A DNA stretch of 32,114 bases from a virus: positions 1 to 32,114 of the IMG/VR virus record IMGVR_UViG_3300033182_000084; one strand, written 5' to 3'. Positions 5,142-10,199 of the stretch are shown piece by piece; the stretch's first letter is position 1; each line of letters starts with the position of its first letter. A model generated the notes under the pieces. That model worked only from the letters and a program-made list of their open reading frames with translations. It had not been told where the DNA came from and did not search any database. The position numbers and the translations under genes are program-made.

Positions 5142-5804
5142 TCAGCCTCCGATCTTCGTGATGAGTTTGGCGAGGTCAGGCTCTTCCCATTCCTCAAGCT
5201 TGCCGGAACGATCCTTGGCTTGCCACGACGAGTCTGCGTGGCATTTCAAGCCGCGCCATCCGTTACCTTCCGAGTCCTTCTCAATCCGCAATGCCAACAC
5301 TTCGTCAAAGAAGTACGGTAGTTGCTGACCAGTCTTGTTTCCGGGCATCGACGGCGCGTAGAGTATCCGCCCCATCTCGTCTTGCATTTTCTCCAGCTTC
5401 GCTGTCATCAGAACGTGCATTGGCAGATCGCGAAACGCGCGGATCAAGTCCGTCATCTGTTCTTGCATCGCGCCGTAAGCTTGGCGTGGATCTTTTGCTT
5501 GTTTCTTTTCAAAGTTCAAAACGACTTCAGCGATTTCAGAGATGCTGTCTATCGCAACTGATGAATAATCTTTTGAGTTCTGCATCAACCACGAATAAAC
5601 TTCTTTTAGATCGCTCATGTTGCCGATCTCAATGAACGGTAGATCAGCGTCACGAATACTCAGCAAGCCGCCCTCCGCCGACAGAATTATCGGATTCGGT
5701 AACGTCGTGATGAGCGTGGTCTTACCAGCGCCAGCTTGTCCGTACACAAGAACCTTAACGCCTGTTGCCGCAATAGCGGACGTACTATTTAGTTTTATAG
5801 CCAT
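5142..5804 (-). CDS. Sak4-type RecA-like phage recombination ATPase
   Basis: 220 residues, the usual size for Sak4. Walker A is GQAGAGKT (22-29) and Walker B SVAIDSISE (82-90); LMTAKLEKMQDE and APSMPGNKTGQQLPYFFDEV match the conserved middle of the phage AAA_24/Sak4 family. These proteins are small Rad51/RecA-like annealing ATPases that depend on a phage ssDNA-binding protein, and a DUF669 gene lies two genes downstream. ATG at 5804 has a strong GGAGG site four bases away. About 50 non-coding bases separate it from the 5856-6146 gene upstream. A role in homologous recombination and genome concatemer formation is established for the family and inferred here. Confidence 0.88.
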   Translation of the reverse strand: MAIKLNSTSAIAATGVKVLVYGQAGAGKTTLITTLPNPIILSAEGGLLSIRDADLPFIEIGNMSDLKEVYSWLMQNSKDYSSVAIDSISEIAEVVLNFEKKQAKDPRQAYGAMQEQMTDLIRAFRDLPMHVLMTAKLEKMQDEMGRILYAPSMPGNKTGQQLPYFFDEVLALRIEKDSEGNGWRGLKCHADSSWQAKDRSGKLEEWEEPDLAKLITKIGG

Positions 5805-5855: not shown

Positions 5856-6146
5856 TTAGCAAAGTTTTTTTGGTAATGGTGCGTATAAATCAGACTGAAT
5901 TAACATTTCAGCGTAATCGTTAAATGCTTCTTCGCGTTCGGCCTTGTTGGTCATGTCAGTATACGGAAAGAAATTTTCAACCGACTCGGCGATTGAAGTA
6001 ACTCCATTTTCTTCAATGACGTACAGTCCGGCCTCTGGGAAGTAATGATCACGCGCACTCATGTTTCGCTCGTTTCCATTCACCAACACGAGCGTTACAA
6101 GCGTCGTGGAGTCTGGTCTGCTCGATACAAACTTTTTTATCTTCAT
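5856..6146 (-). CDS. Small hypothetical early protein
   Basis: 96 residues starting at the ATG at 6146 with an AAAGG site eight bases upstream. Strand-rich N-terminal half (TTLVTLVLVNGNERNMSA, DHYFPEAGLYVIEENG), then a helical acidic half (KAEREEAFNDYAEML). No known motif. Its first 98 bases are shared, in another frame, with the small membrane-protein ORF 6049-6258. This frame looks the better protein in the shared part. Function unknown. Confidence 0.65.
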   Translation of the reverse strand: MKIKKFVSSRPDSTTLVTLVLVNGNERNMSARDHYFPEAGLYVIEENGVTSIAESVENFFPYTDMTNKAEREEAFNDYAEMLIQSDLYAPLPKKLC

Positions 6147-6258
6147 GTCGTTGCCTTTCTTCCCATTCTAGCGCAACGATGTATGACAGCATGATGACGA
6201 CCAAACCTCCAATAAGAAAATACATCACGTCAATAAATCGTTCTAAAAGTTTAAGCAT
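6049..6258 (-). CDS. Small single-span membrane protein, overlaps next gene
   Basis: 69 residues from the ATG at 6258, with GGGAG eight bases upstream and an eight-base overlap with the end of the 6251 gene. Residues 10-30 are a hydrophobic span (VMYFLIGGLVVIMLSYIVAL), followed by a charged tail with three cysteines. The frame is open further upstream, but that part reads poorly and is a shadow of the upstream gene. The last 98 bases overlap the 5856-6146 gene out of frame. It could be a small inner-membrane early protein; I see no lipobox, so Rz/Rz1 spanins are not supported. Confidence 0.5.
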   Translation of the reverse strand: MLKLLERFIDVMYFLIGGLVVIMLSYIVALEWEERQRHEDKKVCIEQTRLHDACNARVGEWKRAKHECA

Positions 6259-6523
6259 CCCATTTCTCCCATTTTTCGACCATGATCGGCTCAACAATAT
6301 CGCAAAAGATCTTGGCCTCTTTATGCATTTCGTATTCGTAAGTCTCGACGGCAGCAGTCTCGATCTCAGCGAAGTATCCGGCATACTCGAGCACTTGAGG
6401 TAGATTCTTATCATCCCGGAAGATGTAACAGAACTTGCCCTCGACCTTTAGGATCTCTGGGATCTCGTGATCGCGGTCAGCTGCCATCGCGAGGAACAAT
6501 GTGTTTACTTTAATTACTACCAC
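6251..6523 (-). CDS. Small hypothetical acidic protein (GTG start)
   Basis: 90 residues using the GTG at 6523, which has an excellent AGGAG site (within 6531-6538) seven to eight bases away. The frame is open to a TTG at 6547 inside the upstream gene, but that codon has no ribosome-binding site. The N-terminus is strand-like (VVVIKVNTLFLAMAADRD), then YIFRDDKNLPQVLEYAGYFA and an acidic helical end. Family not recognised. It overlaps its neighbours on both sides, as expected in a coupled early cluster. Confidence 0.68.
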   Translation of the reverse strand: MVVIKVNTLFLAMAADRDHEIPEILKVEGKFCYIFRDDKNLPQVLEYAGYFAEIETAAVETYEYEMHKEAKIFCDIVEPIMVEKWEKWDA

Positions 6524-6698
6524 GTTTATCTCCTCTCCTAATATCAATGCAAGACTTACACATCCATCTAGAATTATTGGTCTTGAACTTGCCGCCCTCG
6601 AGCGGTCTGTATTTGCTGCAATAGGCGCAATGTCGCTCCCCGGTATATTGAGCGACGGCCTCGCGCATTTGATTTATTTTTAGTCTTTGGTCTGGCAA
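6510..6698 (-). CDS. Small zinc-finger protein (TTG start)
   Basis: 62 residues from the TTG at 6698, placed six bases after a perfect AAGGAG (6705-6710). The in-frame TTG at 6713 would put the start upstream of that site. Two CxxC pairs (HCAYC and MCKSC), about 20 residues apart, with ARG/LYS-rich flanks, form a probable zinc ribbon. The N-terminal KINQMREAVAQY is helical. The role could be nucleic-acid or protein binding; no closer family is recognised. Its 5' part is shared out of frame with the end of ORF 6574-6843. Confidence 0.68.
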   Translation of the reverse strand: MPDQRLKINQMREAVAQYTGERHCAYCSKYRPLEGGKFKTNNSRWMCKSCIDIRRGDKRGSN

Positions 6699-6843
6699 TG
6701 TTTTCTCCTTCAAGTTTTACTGAGTTTATTTTCCAATTGTCGCCATGCAAATTTTCATAGCAGGCTTCGTCATAATGCATTTTTGCGGAGGCGTGGTCAA
6801 CGTACTCGCCGACCACATATCCGTTGACTATGACCTTAAACAC
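6574..6843 (-). CDS. Small hypothetical protein with run-on C-terminus
   Basis: 89 residues from a GTG at 6843, which overlaps the TAA of the coiled-coil gene (6836) but has no clear ribosome-binding site, so coupling is assumed. The first 55 residues read as a real protein (FKVIVNGYVVGEYVDHASAK, YDEACYENLHGDNWKINSV). After about residue 57 the frame enters the zinc-finger gene and becomes Arg/Gln-rich, which looks like run-on after loss of an earlier stop. The real product may therefore be functional only in its N-terminal half. Family unknown. Confidence 0.5.
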   Translation of the reverse strand: MFKVIVNGYVVGEYVDHASAKMHYDEACYENLHGDNWKINSVKLEGENIARPKTKNKSNARGRRSIYRGATLRLLQQIQTARGRQVQDQ

Positions 6844-7126
6844 CGAAGCGCAGCGAGAAGATCGCTGAAGTCGTGGTGTACTTTTCGCGAGTGTTAGAGT
6901 CAACACCCATGTCATCAATCAAAGTTCTCCAATCAAGAACTTTGCGATTCGCCTCGACATATGTTGCGTTGTACACGTTGCCGCAAACTTTCTTGATTCC
7001 GTTTGCTTGGCACTGGTCTTTGATCTCTGCCTCGAGCGCTTTGATCTCGCGATTGTAATCAGCAACGATTTTCTTCATTGCGCCAACTTTGTCGACTAGT
7101 GTCTCGAGCGTGTTTTCTGCTTTCAT
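6836..7126 (-). CDS. Coiled-coil early protein of the Sak4 neighbourhood
   Basis: 96 residues. Residues 1-40 form a coiled coil (ETLVDKVGAMKKIVADYNRE and onward through EIKALEAEIKDQ), followed by a small beta domain with the pattern YVEANRKVLDWRTLIDDM. Small proteins with this coiled coil plus LDW layout are common in the early regions of Sak4-encoding phages; no activity is established. ATG at 7126 has AGGAG seven bases upstream. This is the first gene after the promoter at 7177-7204 and so heads the transcript running through the recombination genes. Confidence 0.75.
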   Translation of the reverse strand: MKAENTLETLVDKVGAMKKIVADYNREIKALEAEIKDQCQANGIKKVCGNVYNATYVEANRKVLDWRTLIDDMGVDSNTREKYTTTSAIFSLRFGV

Positions 7127-7384: not shown

Positions 7385-7663
7385 TCATTCGGTCAAATCA
7401 AGGAACATCCTTTCAATATTAGCGCATTCGATCTCTCGGTTGCGCCATTCTGCCCAAGTTTTAGCTGGCTTACGCCCCGCACGCTCCCACTGCGCCGCGT
7501 GGCACGCCTCGTGTAGGATAACGTTCGGTTTATTCATGTCCGGCGCAAGGTAAATCACCGGGATATCGCCAGCGAGAAAAAAGGTCGCGTTGCTGGGCGT
7601 GATAACCGTGGTATCTGGATAGTGCAAATTAAATAATGCTAGGAACGCAATAATCTCAGTCAT
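7385..7663 (-). CDS. Small HExxH metallopeptidase-like protein
   Basis: 92 residues. HEACH at 51-55 is the zinc-binding HExxH motif, preceded by the hydrophobic VIL and followed by AAQWERAG; E77, E79 and E84 in the helix NREIECANIE are candidates for the third ligand as in gluzincins. Before it lies a beta hairpin (GDIPVIYLAPDMN), the usual edge strand of such folds. It is very short, so essentially a minimal catalytic core. ATG at 7663 has GGGAGG five bases upstream. It is divergent from the small HTH ORF at 7746. This resembles the pairing of ImmA-type peptidases with repressors, but the peptidase is too diverged for me to call it ImmA. Confidence 0.63.
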   Translation of the reverse strand: MTEIIAFLALFNLHYPDTTVITPSNATFFLAGDIPVIYLAPDMNKPNVILHEACHAAQWERAGRKPAKTWAEWRNREIECANIERMFLDLTE

Positions 7664-7687
7664 GTCGCCTCCCGTTGTTGAAGGTTG

Positions 7688-7716
7688 AGTATAATTCTTT
7701 TTTGCACTAACATTAA
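7688..7716. promoter_or_regulatory. Possible divergent promoter region
   Basis: Between the leftward metallopeptidase and the rightward HTH ORF there is a perfect TATAAT on the plus strand (7690-7695) that overlaps TATACT on the minus strand (7688-7693). Neither has a good -35: TTAATG at 7711-7716 on the minus strand is 17 bases away but matches only half, and no -35 is visible on the plus side. A run of nine A (7714-7722) lies alongside. These are probably the early divergent promoters, possibly activator-dependent. Confidence 0.38.
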
Positions 7717-7745
7717 AAAAAAACGCTTTTTAACAGGAGAAAACA

Positions 7746-7934
7746 AAGGAAGTAAAAGAAATCAAAAACTTGCTGTCTGACCGCAATCCCCGAGAGGTGA
7801 GCCGACGCACTGGCATCAGCTACTCAACGTTACGAAACATTACATCTAGCAAAGATCCTGATCCGTCTATCAAGACCGTGAATAAGCTTCGGGAGTATTT
7901 TTCAACGACTTGCCCGAGGCTGACTCATGGCTAA
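7746..7934 (+). CDS. Small Cro-like HTH regulator lacking a canonical start codon
   Basis: An open frame of 62 codons ending TAA at 7932. NPREVSRRTGISYSTLRNIT is a clear Cro/CI-type helix-turn-helix, followed by the usual PSIKTVNKLREYF helix. A strong AGGAG (7735-7739) is followed at the ideal six-base spacing by AAG (7746-7748) where ATG would be expected. ATC at 7761 could start behind AAGGAAG, and TTG at 7770 would give a 54-residue protein but is badly spaced. The frame overlaps the primase ATG (7927) by eight bases, a normal operon junction. It probably regulates the divergent early promoters, perhaps through the palindrome at 7188. It is either a rare-start gene, a mutated gene or a sequence error. 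Confidence 0.6.
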   Translation, partial: KEVKEIKNLLSDRNPREVSRRTGISYSTLRNITSSKDPDPSIKTVNKLREYFSTTCPRLTHG

Positions 7935-9663
7935 CATCACCGAGATTTGGAAGGACAAAAAACCTGTAGATCCGCCGGATATACAGTTACGAAACGCGAT
8001 TGAGGAGGCCGGGTTAGATGCGCCAGCAGAAATTATTTTCGATGGAAGAATTCACCGATTTAATTCAGGTAGCAGTGGAAGATCAAATAGTACAGATAAG
8101 AGCGGTTGGTATATTGCTTTTGGTGATGGCATTTGCGCTGGGAAGTTCGGTGATTGGCGTTGGGGCGTTGAACACAAATGGATACAAAATATCGGTCGTC
8201 GACTCACGCAGAACGAAGAGATTGAGTTTGCGCGACGGATGGAGGCCGCAAAGAAGGCGCGAGAGGAATCAGAGTCGGTAATGCGTGATAACGTCTCCGA
8301 GATCGTTGATAAGATCTGGAACGAGGCGGCACACGCAACCGAGGATCATCCCTACCTAGTCAAGAAGCAAATTAAGCCTCATGGCGCCCGAGTCACTGGG
8401 GATGGGCGACTGATCGTCCCACTCTACAATGACGACGGCGAGATGACGACCGTGCAGTACATCGACGCTAACGGTGGCAAGCTGTATCACACTGGCGGAA
8501 AGACTGGCGGATCGTACTGGCGCATTGGCGCGGATGACGATAACACGAGAGTCTATCTTGCTGAGGGATACGCAACCGCCGCCACAATCGCTGAGACGAC
8601 GTCTAAGGCGTGTTACGTTGCTTACTCGGCGTCTAACATTCCGACGGTCGTAGGACAGCTTAGAGAGCGCTATGGGCCGTCTACGCGCATCATTATCGTT
8701 GCTGATAACGATAGATCGGGAGTTGGCAAGAATCACGCCGATCAGGCCAGTGCGAAGTATGGCGCGACTGTCATCGTGCCGCCGATCGAAGGCATGGACG
8801 CTAACGACTATCTACTCGCCGGGAACGATCTATCAGCACTGCTGGAGCCAGCGACTCAGGAATACGACTGGCTGGAGCATGGTAAAGACTTCAGGTCGAC
8901 TCCGACTCCTATTAGCTGGTATATAAAGAATTGGATTCAGTCTAAATCCTTGGCAATGGTGCATGGGCCTTCAGGATCGGGAAAGACGTTTTTAGTGCTG
9001 GACTGGTGTCTGCATCTGTCGGCGGTCGGTCTTGAGAATCGAGACTGGTGCGGTAACCGGACAAAGCATCTGCCAGTCGTGTATCTGGCTGGTGAGGGAC
9101 ATCACGGACTCAAGGGCCGAGTCGCGGCTTGGATGCAACACCACGACGTAGATGACATCGACTTTTGGATGAGCAAGACAGGAACGGATCTAAACGAGCC
9201 AGAGGGCCTACTGAAGGTCATAGAGAACGTCAGGGCGCTTCCAGTGACGCCAAAGGTAATCGTTGTAGACACACTGCACCGATTCCTTAACGGCGACGAG
9301 AACAGCGCTCAGGACGCCAAGACGATGCTGGACTCGTGCGCCGTACTAATGAATGAGTTTGACTGCACTGTCATGCTTGTGCATCACACTGGCGTGTCTG
9401 AAGAAGCGCAGCATCGAGCCAGAGGATCATCGGCGTGGCGAGGTGCATTGGATATCGAGATCAGCGTTAAGCCATCAAAGGGATCAAGTCCAATCGAAAT
9501 TGTGCAGCGCAAAATGAAAGATGCTGAGATGAAAGACAGTCTGTTTTTTGAGCTGCGTAAGGTAGACATTGCTGGCTGGCGTGATGAGGACGGCGAGCAA
9601 GTACACTCTGTCGTGCTCGAATCCGCATCAGCGCCAGCCAAGGTCAGCAAGAAGCTTTCGTGA
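7927..9663 (+). CDS. Toprim primase fused to RepA-type hexameric helicase
   Basis: 578 residues to the first stop. Residues 30-90 resemble the N-terminal region of phage/plasmid primases. The Toprim fold shows AEGYATA (E213) and VADNDRSG (D260, D262). The AAA_25/RepA-like helicase has Walker A GPSGSGKT (347-354), Walker B VIVVDT (444-449), the HH pair (486-487) and RGSSAWRGALD (499-509). It should prime and unwind phage DNA, and the iteron-rich putative origin lies just downstream. GAGG sits seven bases before the ATG. The TGA at 9661-9663 is followed in the same frame by 95 sense codons encoding what looks like the usual C-terminal domain (see 9664-9951), so the protein is either truncated, read through, or split. 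Confidence 0.92.
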   Translation: MANITEIWKDKKPVDPPDIQLRNAIEEAGLDAPAEIIFDGRIHRFNSGSSGRSNSTDKSGWYIAFGDGICAGKFGDWRWGVEHKWIQNIGRRLTQNEEIEFARRMEAAKKAREESESVMRDNVSEIVDKIWNEAAHATEDHPYLVKKQIKPHGARVTGDGRLIVPLYNDDGEMTTVQYIDANGGKLYHTGGKTGGSYWRIGADDDNTRVYLAEGYATAATIAETTSKACYVAYSASNIPTVVGQLRERYGPSTRIIIVADNDRSGVGKNHADQASAKYGATVIVPPIEGMDANDYLLAGNDLSALLEPATQEYDWLEHGKDFRSTPTPISWYIKNWIQSKSLAMVHGPSGSGKTFLVLDWCLHLSAVGLENRDWCGNRTKHLPVVYLAGEGHHGLKGRVAAWMQHHDVDDIDFWMSKTGTDLNEPEGLLKVIENVRALPVTPKVIVVDTLHRFLNGDENSAQDAKTMLDSCAVLMNEFDCTVMLVHHTGVSEEAQHRARGSSAWRGALDIEISVKPSKGSSPIEIVQRKMKDAEMKDSLFFELRKVDIAGWRDEDGEQVHSVVLESASAPAKVSKKLS

Positions 9664-9951
9664 GTTGAGGAAAGTCGTAAGCGATTTGAGAGGGCTTGGC
9701 ACTTCACCAACAGGAACTATGATGGAGGTAAGCCGTTCGTTGAAAAGTCTGGGATGCTCGACTTCTTGACTTCGAGCGCGATGGGAATGTCAGAAAGCGC
9801 GGCTCGAAAGGCGTGTCAAAATGATCCATCACGCATGATTGGGATACTGATTGATGCGAAATATATTGCACCTAAAGGGCGCGGATGGGTCGCTTTGGAC
9901 GAGTCTTTGATCATGGATTTGAAGTCTCAGTGTGACAATTTGGGACAATAG
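9664..9951 (+). pseudogene. In-frame C-terminal domain of the primase-helicase, cut off by TGA
   Basis: Exactly in frame with the primase-helicase after its TGA, 95 sense codons run to TAG at 9949. The translation starts EESRKRFERAWHFTNRNYDG and continues with PFVEKSGMLDFL, GMSESAARKAC, RMIGILIDAKYIAP and GWVALDES, the pattern of the winged-helix-like C-terminal domain I associate with phage RepA-type primase-helicases. The first ATG (9754) is 30 codons inside this pattern and no ribosome-binding site precedes the frame start. Independent translation would thus give a clipped 65-residue protein. Most likely a nonsense mutation or sequence error; readthrough cannot be excluded. Confidence 0.6.
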
Positions 9952-9970
9952 AATAAAATCAATGACTTAC

Positions 9971-10025
9971 GACGTTTTTGGGACAATGGGACATTTGGGA
10001 CAAAAAGTAATTGTCCCAAAACGTC
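9971..10025. repeat. Long inverted repeat inside iteron group 1
   Basis: GACGTTTTTGGGACAAT (9971-9987) is the reverse complement of ATTGTCCCAAAACGTC (10010-10025) except for one extra T. The 22-base interval holds two more GGGACA copies. It could form a hairpin or be a symmetric protein-binding array in the origin. Confidence 0.75.
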
Positions 10026-10063
10026 AAAATAAAAATGATTTAAATCAATTACTTATGAAAAAT
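10026..10063. other. AT-rich stretch, possible DNA unwinding element
   Basis: Between the two iteron groups only a handful of G or C occur in about 38 bases, and the perfect palindrome GATTTAAATC (10037-10046) sits inside. This composition and placement fit an unwinding element of an iteron origin. The call is by position and composition only. Confidence 0.4.
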
Positions 10064-10114
10064 AGGACAAAGTTTGGGACAAAGCCGGGGACAAATATTT
10101 TTTGGGACAGGACA

Positions 10115-10138
10115 GGACAACACACTATAGTGTTGTCC
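10115..10138. repeat. Dyad inside iteron group 2
   Basis: GGACAACAC (10115-10123) and GTGTTGTCC (10130-10138) form a perfect 9-bp stem around ACTATA. A second, offset palindrome (ACACTATAGTGT) overlaps it. Both arms carry an iteron core in opposite orientation. No T run follows, so it is not a terminator. Confidence 0.72.
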
Positions 10139-10190
10139 AATTGTCCCATTTGTCCTGACCTGAATGTTTTGTCTTGAAGTAGAATATCGC

Positions 10191-10199
10191 TGTGGATAA
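10191..10199 (-). promoter_or_regulatory. Perfect DnaA box
   Basis: TTATCCACA on the minus strand, identical to the strict consensus for host DnaA binding, 35 bases past the last iteron. A single copy could be chance, but its place beside the iterons makes a role in host-assisted initiation plausible. It overlaps the in-frame GTG at 10192 that could be mistaken for the terminase start. Confidence 0.6.

Follow-up and report, generated by a model that had tools for sequence, protein, structure and literature searches.

The phage record IMGVR_UViG_3300033182_000084, whose 32,114 bases are together called the window here, carries 14 GGACA/TGTCC sites at 9943-10155, between a primase-helicase gene and the gene for the terminase small subunit, and this raises the question of whether the array is where the phage begins replication and, if so, which protein reads it. 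Judged by sequence comparison with relatives, together with a predicted structure, the 260-base stretch is very probably the replication start of the phage, and we put at roughly 80% the probability that the array serves as an origin and that a predicted C-terminal winged-helix domain of the primase-helicase itself binds its iterons.

The repeat array of the window

Clustered short repeats, an AT-rich stretch and a DnaA box, the features of an iteron-type origin, are all present in the window (Table 1). The full unit GGGACA makes up 9 of the 14 sites (7 on the + and 2 on the - strand), the remaining five being GGACA variants, and the sites form two blocks, in agreement with the original prediction of about 14 GGGACA-type repeats in two groups; the AT-rich centre, the 9-bp dyad and the perfect DnaA box that it described were each found again. 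Where it had reported an inverted repeat matching at 16 of 17 bases, there are two long inverted repeats (9933-9949/10010-10026 and 10001-10017/10088-10104), each with 15 matching positions out of 17. TGGGACA occurs nine times in the 32 kb window, eight of them within the array; a count of nine was reached in none of 100 whole-window shuffles, and the commonest 6-mer of the array stretch lies 13.6 standard deviations above shuffles of that stretch. The AT-rich core is a candidate unwinding element.

Cumulative GC skew, for which a turn at 10 kb had been anticipated, lends no support: GC and AT skew change sign at ~7.5-8 kb, some 2 kb from the array and where divergent genes meet, and GC skew shows no change at the array itself (~10 kb). 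Skew decides little here because phage skew follows gene direction, and with its turn coinciding with the gene-direction flip it was set aside as origin evidence.

Table 1. Positions of the proposed reader, the repeat array and neighbouring elements in the window.
Feature	Position	Strand	Details
Primase-helicase (P4-alpha-type primase with EGYATA motif, Toprim_3, AAA_25/RepA-type helicase)	7927-9663	+	Pfam, hhalign
In-frame TGA separating the helicase from the C-terminal domain	9661-9663	+	arginine codon here in L002 and L003
C-terminal winged-helix domain (predicted), proposed iteron reader	9664-9951	+	95 codons and TAG; overlaps first iteron
MSESAARKACQ, proposed recognition helix and N-terminal lead-in	9787-9819	+	residues 621-631 of relatives
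Iteron block 1	9942-10018	.	GGGACA at 9942+, 9980+, 9988+, 9997+, 10012-
AT-rich core with GATTTAAATC (10037-10046)	10019-10064	.	up to 87% AT over 30 bp
Iteron block 2	10065-10119	+	GGACA-type units at 10065, 10077, 10089, 10105, 10110, 10115; full GGGACA at 10076+, 10088+, 10104+
Dyad GGACAACAC-ACTATA-GTGTTGTCC	10115-10138	.	9-bp arms 10115-10123/10130-10138
Inverted GGACA-type units	10134-10155	-	starts 10134, 10142, 10151; full GGGACA at 10142-
Perfect DnaA box TTATCCACA	10191-10199	-	boxes enriched in relatives

The primase-helicase and its C-terminal domain

In the primase-helicase, Pfam identifies AAA_25 (E 7.6e-35) and Toprim_3 (5.2e-10), and hhalign aligns the primase domain with that of P4 alpha at about 99.1% (34% identity over 158 columns, EGYATA present). 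The alignment to P4 alpha ends at the primase, before the helicase, whose closest solved relative by sequence is RSF1010 RepA (1g8y, E 1.1e-5).

The C-terminal domain had been described as lost in the original prediction; it can still be read in frame from 9664 to 9948, after the single TGA that closes the gene, and runs to a TAG at 9949-9951. This stretch is coding-like in one frame only—the one continuing past the TGA—and, set against the relative L002, shows five synonymous differences and not one nonsynonymous. Ten relatives have no stop at the corresponding position, and exact-sequence scans returned no TGA-bearing version in other viral contigs, the first of the patterns used being one that would miss L002, which differs one base before the TGA. 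Because the stretch behind it is coding-like and shows no nonsynonymous change against L002, the TGA is, on this comparison, either recent or an error. An alternative genetic code was considered as an explanation and rejected, there being no sign of general recoding since the other long genes of the window that end at TGA have few codons before the next stop (a maximum of 57 in one). As the proposed reader domain lies behind the TGA, the window copy would need readthrough or a separately made domain, unless it is a mutant or was misassembled.

AlphaFold2, run on the 9664-9951 stretch together with 56 relatives, predicts (pLDDT 82) the order helix-strand-three helices-two strands-helix. Foldseek matches the model, with E values from 0.02 upwards, to DNA-binding winged helices, those of the CRP family among them, and VIA-align 2 matches it to ArsR-type regulators (Z 7.2, 72 residues, 2.6 A); scores of this size agree with an ordinary winged helix and single out no nearer relative, and a profile search of the domain in the PDB gave nothing below E 0.19. 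The origin-binding domain of P4 alpha was considered as a homologue and set aside, having no sequence match to this domain (hhalign 0.3%) and being absent among the structural matches listed; the two may still share a fold.

Conservation of the array and covariation with the proposed reader

The feature, originally thought uncommon in a phage, is not uncommon within this phage family. In 84 of 109 relatives the 280-bp stretch at the stop of the primase-helicase gene contains a 6-mer repeated beyond all 200 of its shuffles, compared with 2 of 107 control stretches inside the gene and 0 of 54 lying 3 kb downstream, and relatives keeping the gap without repeats, which the original prediction had named as counter-evidence, are mostly not found. 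Throughout the family the array comes after the gene for the primase-helicase and is accompanied by an AT-rich core, a dyad and DnaA boxes, and this comparison supports the iteron-type origin reading. The unit itself differs among relatives (GGGACA, AGGACA, GGTTCA, GGTACA, CGGATA, GGTAAC, AGGGTCA, AGGGGGC and others), more than 20 different units occurring in the family. Twenty-five of the 109 loci miss the test at the stop (280 bp, 200 shuffles); in part this reflects the filter on low-complexity 6-mers such as GGGGGC, and in some cases the remoteness of the locus. Of the failures examined, two are displaced arrays: L021 and L074 have GGTAAC arrays ~1 kb and 0.35 kb further downstream, respectively, in agreement with the expectation from their SAKQY helix. 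In L021, ~1 kb (5971-6960) is inserted between the primase-helicase and the array. L010, where the C-terminal domain is shortened and the reader helix incomplete, has no array.

The locus L012 and the loci L148-L213 have an unrelated N-terminal half, which looks like a prim-pol primase, and retain the RepA-type helicase, the C-terminal domain and a GGGACA array. The remote relatives L103, L106, L108, L109 and L116 have a different-looking C-terminal end, and arrays still follow the gene, with units including CGTGACA, GATGCA and GCGACA. Papers on CGphi29 and related roseophages make no mention of iterons or an origin, and literature searches, with subscription papers mostly outside their scope, returned no description of such arrays for this family.

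Of 146 loci, 64 have perfect DnaA boxes in the 400 bp that follow the stop, the density being 1.61/kb near the stop versus 0.026/kb elsewhere (~60-fold enrichment). The dyad in Table 1 corresponds to one in relatives whose apex reads TTTA or TATA and whose stems vary in sequence; it is present with at least 6 pairs in 38 of 74 loci, versus 0.3% of shuffles that preserve base composition only. Across the family it has a CTTTAG or CTATAG centre and variable stems, and facing iterons often lie on its flanks; a role as a priming hairpin is possible. An intrinsic terminator was considered and rejected, the window showing no T run.

Since the terminase small subunit (TerS) gene comes next in the window, the array could also be taken for the recognition site of the terminase (pac). 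It nevertheless keeps its place after the primase in loci that have MazG (L009) or hypothetical genes (L007, L008, L011, L012) next, and the TerS side is 85% identical between L002 and L004 though their arrays differ; the array thus keeps company with the primase and not with TerS, and a packaging site is very improbable. Tandem copies of TAAGTAGCAACCGA, possibly a packaging site, lie between the DnaA box and the TerS start in L002 (5675-5745) and L004 (6300-6375) and are absent from the window.

The diversity of units allows reader and array to be compared across the family. Over 62 dereplicated loci, unit similarity is associated with C-terminal identity when the helicase is held constant (partial Mantel r 0.45, p 0.0005), as opposed to r -0.08 for helicase identity with the C-terminal domain held constant. 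In the pooled set of 92 dereplicated loci, helix 619-636 given the helicase reaches r 0.55 (p 0.0005) and the helicase given the helix 0.00; the nearest neighbour shares the unit in 78% of cases by helix, 68% by the rest of the C-terminal domain and 58% by helicase, and when only loci below 65% helicase identity are allowed the unit is predicted in 33%, compared with 15% by helicase. Kinship among loci inflates any association test, and the Mantel p values leave some shared descent, the main safeguard being controls of equal relatedness, namely the helicase and a Cro-like protein. Among pairs with more than 70% helicase identity, scored for positions that differ when units differ and not when units agree, the association with iteron change peaks at residues 621-631, on or beside a helix of the predicted winged-helix domain (model residues 42-52, spanning helix 44-50 and both its ends). 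In loci added later whose helix agreed with a known one in at least 13 of its 19 positions, the repeated unit was usually that of the known locus or a close variant; these loci are mostly one clade with the L012 helix and so not independent.

The Cro-like protein is an HTH regulator encoded at 7749-7933, just before the primase, and present there in at least 33 loci and in annotated relatives; the array might be its operator. On those 33 loci, however, no covariation links it to the unit (-0.02, p 0.62, compared with 0.54 for the proposed reader), which speaks strongly against it as the reader; L031 and L032, moreover, share a nearly identical regulator and differ in their units, and the divergent region 7660-7930 contains no GGACA, making an operator hardly credible. 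Iteron plasmids mostly rely on a separate Rep protein, and by that precedent a distinct, unrecognised initiator of phage or host could read the iterons here. This appears improbable, the unit tracking a single domain of the primase-helicase, with its peak on one helix, and no other Rep-type protein being named among the window proteins scanned (a subset). Of the binders originally proposed, covariation therefore singles out the C-terminal domain and disfavours a separate initiator.

Covariation ties the domain to the units without separating an origin from an autoregulatory site, and it would look alike if the domain, bound to the array, acted as a repressor or terminator of its own operon, the origin lying elsewhere. 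Promoter-like hexamers do overlap the array (5 versus 1.4 in shuffles), which comes after the gene to be controlled. The ~60-fold enrichment of DnaA boxes, the AT-rich core and the spread of 14 sites across 210 bp argue against such control, as does a terminator-type scan of the array that finds nothing, and we regard it as unlikely.

Reader and array have also been replaced jointly. Between L002 and L004 the two are exchanged together between homologous flanks (5175-5642, by DNA comparison), and L031 and L032 align at 88% up to 2690, a point inside the reader domain. Helix and unit pair as SAKQY with GGTAAC, SAKVY with GGAAC-type units, AERTVRNM with AGGGTCA, and RTIEND with AGGGGGC. L047, with GGTAAC, and L080, with GGAAC-type units, are 95% identical over residues 595-660. 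We tentatively suggest, as an idea with somewhat less than even odds, that reader helix and unit form a legible natural recognition code throughout this large family, and that the end of the initiator gene is exchanged with its array as a cassette that resets replication specificity, perhaps escaping origin-directed interference.

A proposed mechanism and its known counterparts

In the origin reading favoured here, the C-terminal winged-helix domain of the primase-helicase would bind the GGGACA/GGACA units in the two blocks around the AT-rich core and thereby position the helicase at the core; DnaA may assist its melting, and the fused primase would then begin synthesis. The start of replication and its reader would thus be predictable straight from sequence in a large, mostly uncharacterised phage family, with a pairing that looks like a lock and key. 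Adjacent and varying together in more than 20 ways, reader and array resemble a natural specificity-swap experiment run many times, and the natural pairs bear both on a protein-DNA recognition code and on the idea that a phage could alter its origin specificity through the exchange of a single cassette. The proposal is testable, since arrays of this kind are carried by phages in culture: Alteromonas PB15 and XX1924, with a GGTTCA array, Idiomarinaceae 1N2-2 and Salicola CGphi29.

In P4 alpha a single chain unites primase and helicase with recognition of the origin, the helicase being of the SF3 class. The phage protein shares with it a homologous EGYATA primase domain, and just as the P4 crr with its type 1 repeats directly follows the alpha gene, the array here follows the initiator gene. 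The helicase, in contrast, is of the AAA_25/RepA type and not SF3/D5-type, the C-terminal domain, with its predicted winged-helix fold, has no detectable sequence similarity to that of P4, and P4 needs a second region 4.5 kb away. The C-terminal domains of SaPI Rep and SCCmec Cch2 recognise iterons that immediately follow their helicase genes (PMC7581432). The phage domain is likewise matched in specificity to the iterons behind its gene, as judged by covariation only, whereas the SaPI and SCCmec helicases, set apart by description, are D5/AAA+ or DUF927-type and not RepA-type. The RepA-type helicase is shared, by sequence, with RSF1010, and the layout of iterons plus hairpin (ssi hairpins in RSF1010) recurs in the phage array; yet RSF1010 divides helicase, primase and iteron binding among separate proteins (RepA, RepB and RepC), its RepA being a 279-residue chain without this C-terminal domain. 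No RepC-like protein was found among the window proteins scanned, and the unit covaries with the fused domain instead. PLE RepA of Vibrio cholerae satellites has a DNA-binding domain that varies in step with the origin, and replication requires a cognate pair (PMC8263062). The phage initiator resembles it in covarying with its array, and differs in that PLE RepA is a RepA_N initiator without helicase or primase and has two specificity types, compared with more than 20 units in this phage family. We read the phage origin as one that would work like those of P4 alpha and SaPI Rep, but on a helicase of the RSF1010-RepA type.
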